A DNA stretch of 64,000 bases from assembly GCA_900696495.1 (NCBI GenBank), contig CAADGI010000008.1, positions 62,001 through 126,000 on the forward strand. Direction: 5' to 3'. The position numbers were made by a program, and so were the translations under genes. Below the pieces are notes generated by a model. It saw nothing but the letters and a program-made list of their open reading frames with translations. It was not told where the DNA came from and did not search any database. Origin of the DNA: an uncultured Alphaproteobacteria bacterium. GTDB lineage: Bacteria; Pseudomonadota; Alphaproteobacteria; Micavibrionales; Micavibrionaceae. This document shows, one piece after another, positions 5,771 through 39,059 of this stretch; positions within the stretch are counted from its first letter, which is position 1; each line of letters opens with the position of its first letter.

Positions 5771-5847
5771 CGGAACGTGGCGCAGCCTGGTAGCGCACTT
5801 GCATGGGGTGCAAGGGGTCGCAGGTTCAAATCCTGTCGTTCCGACCA
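5771..5847 (+). tRNA. tRNA-Pro (GGG)
   Basis: Cloverleaf read directly: acceptor CGGAACG/CGTTCCG, anticodon stem CTTGC/GCAAG with loop ATGGGGT giving anticodon GGG, T arm GCAGG-TTCAAAT-CCTGT, A73 and encoded CCA. The sequence from 5823 to 5849 is repeated exactly at 5921-5947. Confidence 0.97.
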
Positions 5848-5947
5848 TTACTAACTAGCATAAGTTTGACTATAGGATTTTAACCTGCGTTTTTAAGGTT
5901 TGCGCGCCTTCGCGCGCGGGGGTTCAAATCCTGTCGTTCCGACCATT
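5848..5947 (+). mobile_element. 73-nt hairpin element plus duplicated tRNA-Pro 3' end
   Basis: Exactly 73 bases (5848-5920) separate the tRNA CCA from a perfect 27-base copy (5921-5947) of the tRNA 3' end including CCATT. The insert ends in a perfect hairpin, GCGCGC-CTTC-GCGCGC at 5902-5917, then GGG. The same architecture with the same 73-base insert length is found after tRNA-Val (38970-39059). No integrase is nearby. The tail copy cannot fold as a tRNA and is not a second gene. Mobile nature is inference; the duplication is directly seen. Confidence 0.6.
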
Positions 5948-38894: not shown

Positions 38895-38969
38895 GCGCGA
38901 TTAGCTCAGCGGTAGAGCAACTCGTTTACACCGAGTGGGTCGGCGGTTCAATCCCGTCATCGCGCACCA
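38895..38969 (+). tRNA. tRNA-Val (TAC)
   Basis: Acceptor GCGCGAT/ATCGCGC, anticodon stem ACTCG/CGAGT with loop TTTACAC (anticodon TAC), T arm CGGCG-GTTCAAT-CCCGT region and encoded CCA. A copy of its last 17 bases, with one mismatch, lies at 39043-39059. Confidence 0.96.
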
Positions 38970-39059
38970 TCTTTACTCAATAACGCTGGTTTATTTTTGC
39001 GCGCCTTAGCGAGATTTAGGTGTTGCGTGCTTCGCACGCGGGCCCGTCATTGCGCACCA
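38970..39059 (+). mobile_element. 73-nt hairpin element plus duplicated tRNA-Val 3' end
   Basis: Again exactly 73 bases (38970-39042) lie between the tRNA CCA and a copy of the tRNA tail (39043-39059, 16 of 17 identical, CCA kept). The insert ends in the perfect hairpin GCGTGC-TTC-GCACGC (39025-39039) plus GGG. Its 3' third matches that of the tRNA-Pro element, and the stem keeps pairing although the bases differ (GCGTGC/GCACGC against GCGCGC/GCGCGC). The GNAT gene on the opposite strand ends four bases further on. Confidence 0.6.

Follow-up and report, generated by a model that had tools for sequence, protein, structure and literature searches.

Repeat units of tyrT/rtT-like architecture behind many tRNA genes of Alphaproteobacteria

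Two tRNA-linked units in the window

The window analyzed here is a 64,000-nucleotide stretch of an uncultured Micavibrionaceae bacterium (genome G000; contig CAADGI010000008.1, positions 62,001 to 126,000). Two of its tRNA genes, both on the forward strand, are followed by a short insert and a second copy of their own 3′ end. Behind tRNA-Pro(ggg), placed by ARAGORN at 5771–5847, a spacer (5848–5873), whose first two bases are also found behind the tail copy, leads from the CCA to a reverse complement of the tRNA-Pro T-arm (5874–5889), hereafter the anti-T. It agrees with the arm at 15 of 16 positions, which none of 1000 shuffles matched. The AT-rich linker TTTTTAAGGTTT (5890–5901), the GC hairpin GCGCGC-CTTC-GCGCGC (5902–5917), and a joining GGG (5918–5920) complete an insert of 73 bases (5848–5920), and the final 25 nt of tRNA-Pro follow with their CCA, matching at 25 of 25 positions (5921–5945). 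The whole unit, 5848–5945, has the typical form.

The unit flagged in a preliminary description of this DNA lies behind tRNA-Val(tac) (38895–38969, forward strand, ARAGORN) and is atypical. As had been reported, its insert measures 73 bases (38970–39042) and is followed by the final 17 nt of tRNA-Val, 16 of them matching (39043–39059). Its hairpin, GCGTGC-TTC-GCACGC (39025–39039), is indeed re-paired relative to the GCGCGC/GCGCGC of the proline unit, a GGG follows (39040–39042), and the two inserts have the TTTA-GGT-TTGCG run in common. The shared architecture proposed for the two loci was borne out for the hairpin, the GGG, and the tail copy, whereas an anti-T is present in the proline unit alone. 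The AT-rich spacer 3′ of the valine CCA (38970–38998) has no detectable anti-T, and the T-arm reverse complement is absent from the entire valine insert, where 350 of 1000 shuffles equaled the best match; one part of the usual anatomy is thus missing. The valine insert additionally holds a decayed first hairpin, GCGCGCCTTAGCGAGA (38999–39014), similar by eye to the proline hairpin. In the sister genome G097, the unit at tRNA-Val(tac) carries a different hairpin, ATGCGCATTCGCGCAT with GGG, placed identically with respect to the tail copy, and the junction GGG|CCCGTCA is identical; at the same tRNA of a second sister, G098, there is no unit. Taken alone, the valine unit would have been a weak case against a chance palindrome. 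Reading by eye of stretches at the tRNA-His, tRNA-Leu, and tRNA-Asp genes of the window revealed no such unit.

Distribution and anatomy of the units

A pattern combining the hairpin with the T-arm gave 12 matches in 5 of 104 genomes of the family, all 3′ of tRNAs, and none in the reversed control. A covariance model (R1), built from 12 units, matched 47 of the 104 family genomes at an E-value of 0.01 or better. At the trusted cut-off of at least 28.9 bits, it yielded 63 matches in 31 of the 104 genomes, and all 63 sequences were retrieved. Fifty-four begin 9–53 nt downstream of a tRNA CCA on the same strand, five are extra copies 150–342 nt behind a tRNA, and four lie behind the 3′ part of a tRNA, either at a contig edge or past an insertion. 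The tRNA linkage expected of such a scan was found at 63 of 63 strong family matches, although, with T-arm units as its training set, the model itself partly favors this start point and proximity to tRNAs. Matches below 28.9 bits were excluded; some are tRNA-Ser itself, such as positions 1082–1144 of locus L037 in G000. Because R1 contains the T-arm, it is blind to units with other break points. Both the valine unit of the window and the units upstream of tRNA-Ser(gct), described below, are without a clear anti-T and have another start point; they were found by reading and by a pattern rather than by R1. Within the family, units are present at 19 isoacceptors.

Beyond the family, searches of the order matched 36 of 142 genomes at an E-value of 1e-4, a total that includes the family's own and a single candidate match in G141 (family f7). 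Outside the family, the matches in G131, G132, G136, and G138 (family f6) proved genuine on reading. In the class, 9 of 385 genomes matched, with genuine units in G000, G004, G522, G264, G477, G151, and G242; the matches L186 and L189 were tRNA-Ser self-matches. A phylum-wide search with a further model (R2) matched 9 of 398 genomes at an E-value of 1e-5. The genuine cases (G000, G860, and G726) all lie within the class, and the six matches beyond it were tRNA-Arg(tcg) self-matches. Two of four pattern-search matches (L176 and L178) were attributed to chance. Besides the family itself, units are thus present in a second family of its order and sporadically elsewhere in the Alphaproteobacteria. 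Arrays were also found, with two copies at tRNA-Ser(gct) in G000, two in G052, two in G138, three in G136, where the third tail is shortened, and arrays at two tRNAs in G067.

Typical units follow one order. The tRNA with its CCA is succeeded by a spacer, an anti-T that is the reverse complement of its own T-arm, an AT-rich linker that is often CTTTTTAAAAA-like, a GC hairpin with its GG(GG), a tRNA copy that begins at the T-loop edge and reaches the CCA, and the flank. In aligned units, the start of the spacer resembles the downstream flank, and by this alignment the typical unit is shown to sit between two direct copies, each running from the T-loop edge to the CCA and on into the flank for 0 to about 22 nt. 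With the final 28 nt of the tRNA as the query, 53 of the 54 first units have a tail copy that begins 25–28 nt from the tRNA end; in 38 of the 54 it is perfect to the CCA. Past the CCA, the direct repeat continues for 4.0 nt on average and for 22 nt at most (53 units scored); shuffled pairs gave a mean of 1.0 (sd 0.17), and none of 5000 reached the observed value. The anti-T fits its own tRNA with a mean score of 21.9, against 14.0 (sd 0.5) for shuffled partners, none of 5000 scoring as high, and 11.6 for the sense-tail control. Ranked against the tails of other isoacceptors, the own tail falls in the upper half in 52 of 54 units.

Across the 54 first units, a set that includes the proline unit of the window but excludes the valine unit, the distance from the CCA to the copy ranges from 56 to 124 nt, with a median of 78. 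It equals 73 in two units, one of them the proline unit, so that the fixed 73-base spacing seen in the preliminary description must be put down to chance. Its idea of one mobile or copied unit that adopts the target's tail fared better: a single kind of unit is found at many tRNAs, each time with the tail of its host, but the fixed length has to be dropped. The expected covariation of paired positions was likewise observed. Among 59 distinct aligned units, covariation was 0.384, compared with 0.140 (sd 0.010) in shuffles, and 86.4% of cells were paired, compared with at most 44.1% when the alignment was slid, both figures being biased towards the model because the alignment was fitted to it.

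In G000, where 34 tRNA genes were found, units lie 3′ of Pro(ggg), Val(tac), Arg(cct), Pro(cgg), and Ser(tga), and two tandem 80-bp copies lie antisense on the 5′ side of Ser(gct). Behind the other G000 tRNAs, no unit was seen by eye within 180 nt; six of the 34 genes end 0–3 bases from a contig end and were left out of this tally. Folding z-scores of six units were −1.2 for Ser(tga), +0.5 for Val, −1.6 for Ser(gct), and −2.3, −3.5, and −3.3 for the remaining three. On the 5′ side of tRNAs, where reading covered Ser(gct), the units are mirror images: they copy the tRNA 5′ end from the D-loop outward, in antisense, with two such units in G000 and one in G097 (loci L037, 900–1080, and L240).

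Comparison with the E. coli RtT repeat and with sister genomes

The tyrT/rtT repeats have been a single E. coli curiosity for decades. In the region examined behind tRNA-Tyr at tyrV-tyrT of E. coli K-12, the order is tRNA-Tyr tail, flank ATCACTTTC, anti-tail GGGGAAGGAT, hairpins, and tail copy; the anti-tail is a 10-base run, and an equally long run arose in 3 of 1000 shuffles. The short shared flank, the tail copy ending in CCA, and the tandem arrangement of RtT/rttR (RF00391) all recur in the units described here. In the Rfam consensus, the anti-tail pairs with the tail copy, as it does in typical units, although the window's valine unit fails to do so, and the first units hold the 3′ end of the preceding tRNA gene as the RtT repeat does. 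The E. coli repeat differs in its 178-bp period and several inner hairpins, whereas the units here have inserts of 56–124 nt, one hairpin as a rule, and 19 isoacceptors as hosts in the family. At the Rfam gathering score, RtT had no match in six G000 loci scanned, where only tRNA matched; the E. coli control returned three RtT matches. With a tyrT/rtT-like architecture found at many alphaproteobacterial tRNAs, its origin and use become testable through comparison.

For the repeat of the tyrT operon, evidence from covariation is considered in PMC8250186, where one helix lacks such backing; a tandem GA motif in RtT RNA is mentioned in PMC7657543, and one table row of PMC4606813 gives no effect for RttR. 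In the portions of the open-licence literature that were searchable, no description of such units outside E. coli, or at other tRNAs, was found.

Comparison of G000 with its sisters G097 and G098 revealed both presence and absence at orthologous tRNAs. At Arg(ccg), there is no unit in G000, a full unit in G097, and a remnant in G098, where the anti-T persists and little of the copy is left. Both tail copies in G097 carry a new T-arm, while the anti-T still fits the G098 arm, a mismatch that is expected if the anti-T records the time of writing. At this locus (L221), both strands of the T-stem have changed relative to the sisters, and the tRNA and its tail copy share the change, a sign that one may have converted the other. 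At Ser(tga), G000 and G098 have full units and G097 is unit-free. The G098 spacer and the G097 flank are identical at 17 of 18 bases; for the G098 flank downstream of the tail copy, the agreement with G097 is only 13 of 18, so the G097 locus may be either an empty site or a loss.

The cores of units at different tRNAs resemble each other most within a genome. Mean likeness was 10.2 within genomes (43 pairs), 9.4 between genomes of one genus (120 pairs), and 7.3 between genera (1143 pairs); with permuted genome labels it was 7.6 (sd 0.47), and none of 2000 permutations was as high (53 of the 54 units). This pattern favors copying, with the qualification that part of the likeness is lineage, because the permutation ignores kinship; shared ancestry or a lineage preference for certain hairpins could explain that part. 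Between orthologous loci (six comparisons at four loci, non-independent), identity was 92% in the anti-T, 91% in the linker and hairpin, and 95% in the tail copy, as against 80% in the spacer and 70% in the flank behind the copy. The greater conservation of unit parts would also fit selection on an RNA, and with it the selection on structure suggested in the preliminary description. Since units are sometimes absent, decayed, or mismatched at orthologous tRNAs, continual re-creation and loss would be possible as well.

Proposed copying through the T-arm and competing explanations

The reading we prefer, which we hold to be a little short of probable, is that the units are tRNA-linked repeats of the tyrT/rtT kind, written from the host tRNA, whose core is copied by way of the shared T-arm. 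The anatomy, the own-tRNA anti-T, the spread, and the sister differences behind this scheme were observed; annealing and extension are inferred. The core, consisting of linker, hairpin, and GG, would be flanked on either side by outward-facing T-arm sequence. Because the T-arm motif GGTTCRANTCC is common to nearly all tRNA genes, a 3′ end of the core could anneal at another tRNA gene and be extended along the tail of that gene. Extension of one strand would produce the direct tail copy and flank, and extension of the other strand, or fold-back onto the first copy, would produce the anti-T. The core would then be a very small non-coding element that adopts the tail of each target, slippage between copies would generate tandem arrays, and deletion would lead to loss. 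No dedicated enzyme would be required. Once transcribed, the anti-T is predicted to form a stem with the tail copy, like the corresponding parts of E. coli RtT RNA. Intermediates, an enzyme, or a transposition event were not seen in these data. More tentatively still, and on balance doubtfully, the direct and inverted T-arm and tail copies around a conserved hairpin core might mark a tiny non-coding element that moves from tRNA to tRNA and takes its targeting sequence from the target, with rtT as a relic of the same process. If the copying scheme is true, DNA without genes can spread by re-reading its target.

A functional structured RNA is the main contender, quite possible although we hold it somewhat less likely than copying. 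The unit would be transcribed as a 3′ trailer of the pre-tRNA, and the stem formed by anti-T and tail copy would steer 3′ processing or free a small RNA, with complementarity maintained by selection and release modeled on that of rtT RNA from the tyrT transcript. The strong covariation and pairing, in the model-fitted alignment, the conservation of anti-T, core, and copy above spacer and flank, and the like pairing of E. coli RtT, an Rfam RNA, all speak for it. However, the presence of units is patchy inside the genus, varying among genomes at Arg(ccg), Val, and Ser(tga), and the Ser(gct) units lie antisense on the 5′ side. Neither window unit has a terminator-like site, and no convincing promoter was seen at either. 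In a fold-protection test of 50 of the 54 units (four were dropped for an N in the stretch or a weak copy match), scrambling the anti-T left the predicted tRNA fold unharmed: pairing of the acceptor with its own strand was 0.002, against 0.007 when scrambled. In a transcript ending behind the anti-T, the acceptor stem was predicted to be lost, with a mean of 0.19 where the tRNA alone gave 0.90. A role of the anti-T in protecting the tRNA fold by trapping the copy was rejected, pairing of the acceptor with the distant copy being 0.92 with the anti-T and 0.90 with it scrambled. This predicted preference for the distant copy is taken as a weakness of the energy model, in which such pairing is overrated.

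The remaining explanations compete with the copying scheme less closely. A restored tRNA with a displaced tail copy is, according to PMC4383910, the signature of integrative islands. The units share with tyrosine-integrase elements an intact tRNA, a displaced 3′ copy, and a break point in a tRNA loop, and could be collapsed islands inserted at the T-loop that lost their interior, the tRNA and tail being attL and attR. Directly behind Pro(cgg), where G000 has a unit, G097 encodes a Phage_integrase protein (L254, 331 aa, PF00589), and a similar frame was seen by eye in G098 (L255). But in G098, the displaced Pro(cgg) tail copy (C14:307052) begins in the anticodon loop, spans about 46 bp, and has neither anti-T nor hairpin before it, so that in this one case compared, the att-core copy of an island is unlike the tail copy of a unit. 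The units are moreover gene-free, have inserts of at most 124 nt (54 first units), and contain an inverted T-arm and a hairpin. We consider this origin unlikely, because deletion would not leave an identical order of anti-T, linker, and hairpin at 19 isoacceptors.

Less likely again, at the level of a faint chance, is a hairpin element of the REP/RAYT or IS200/IS605 type moved by a Y1 transposase, with the anti-T as the guide to the cleavage site. In IS608, guide, hairpin, and target stand in a similar order. The hairpins here are lineage-specific, and G069, with four strong matches, carries a Y1_Tnp gene. Against this, five of the six genomes with at least four strong matches (G067, G049, G000, G098, and G053) lack Y1_Tnp, G097 has no match to it either, and an element of this type would not leave direct repeats of 25 to about 50 bp; at an E-value of 0.001, 34 of the 104 family genomes have Y1_Tnp matches. 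As regards MITE features, the duplication is of this same variable length, and the T-arm copies face each other but are target-derived. REPs and CGTC-tagged palindromes are likewise short, lineage-specific intergenic hairpins, and PMC3733652 reports a CGTC family from Micavibrio aeruginosavorus; all 63 strong matches here differ in lying behind tRNA 3′ parts and in carrying tRNA copies. A chance palindrome beside decayed tRNA copies is refuted for typical units and next to negligible overall. The bare 5-bp palindrome with GGG does occur in G000 at chance level (18 matches, 16 in the reversed control), in line with the preliminary description's own caution that hairpins at random places would reduce the case to coincidence. 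Yet stems of 6 bp or more occur in six of these 18, each of them a tRNA-linked copy, the other 12 having shorter stems, and the hairpin plus T-arm search across 104 genomes, with its empty control and its tRNA-linked matches, and the own-tRNA anti-T score above all 5000 shuffles are at odds with coincidence. An intron-like insert, with the tRNA 5′ half using the second tail, was also considered, and nothing in favor of splicing was found.

The units may cause assembly breaks at tRNA genes and mislead the annotation of att sites and tRNA fragments; fragments left by islands, and those in CRISPR spacers, are treated in PMC9897764. Both G067 arrays (L106 and L134) are interrupted in the assembly by a run of N. 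Behind tRNA-Asn in G049 (L095), a second hairpin, GTGTGCTAAAGCACAC with GGG, lies within the tail copy and is followed by a shorter tail copy, apparently, by eye, a nested unit. Units at L109 (G022) and L146 (G053) are, also by eye, joined to tRNA 3′ halves, where the 5′ half seems to have been displaced by an insertion at the anticodon loop. The contig-end tRNA genes of G000 lie at C24:23557, C18:51801, C24:7, C21:6, C25:47302, and C17:5, and unresolved arrays or integrated elements may follow them. Further G000 contigs start within the tail or the anticodon loop of a tRNA and overlap by short stretches. The tRNA-Leu(taa) gene of G000 is broken at its anticodon loop between the end of C20 and the start of C5, and the end of C20 holds, by eye, the apparent start of a phage-type integrase gene.
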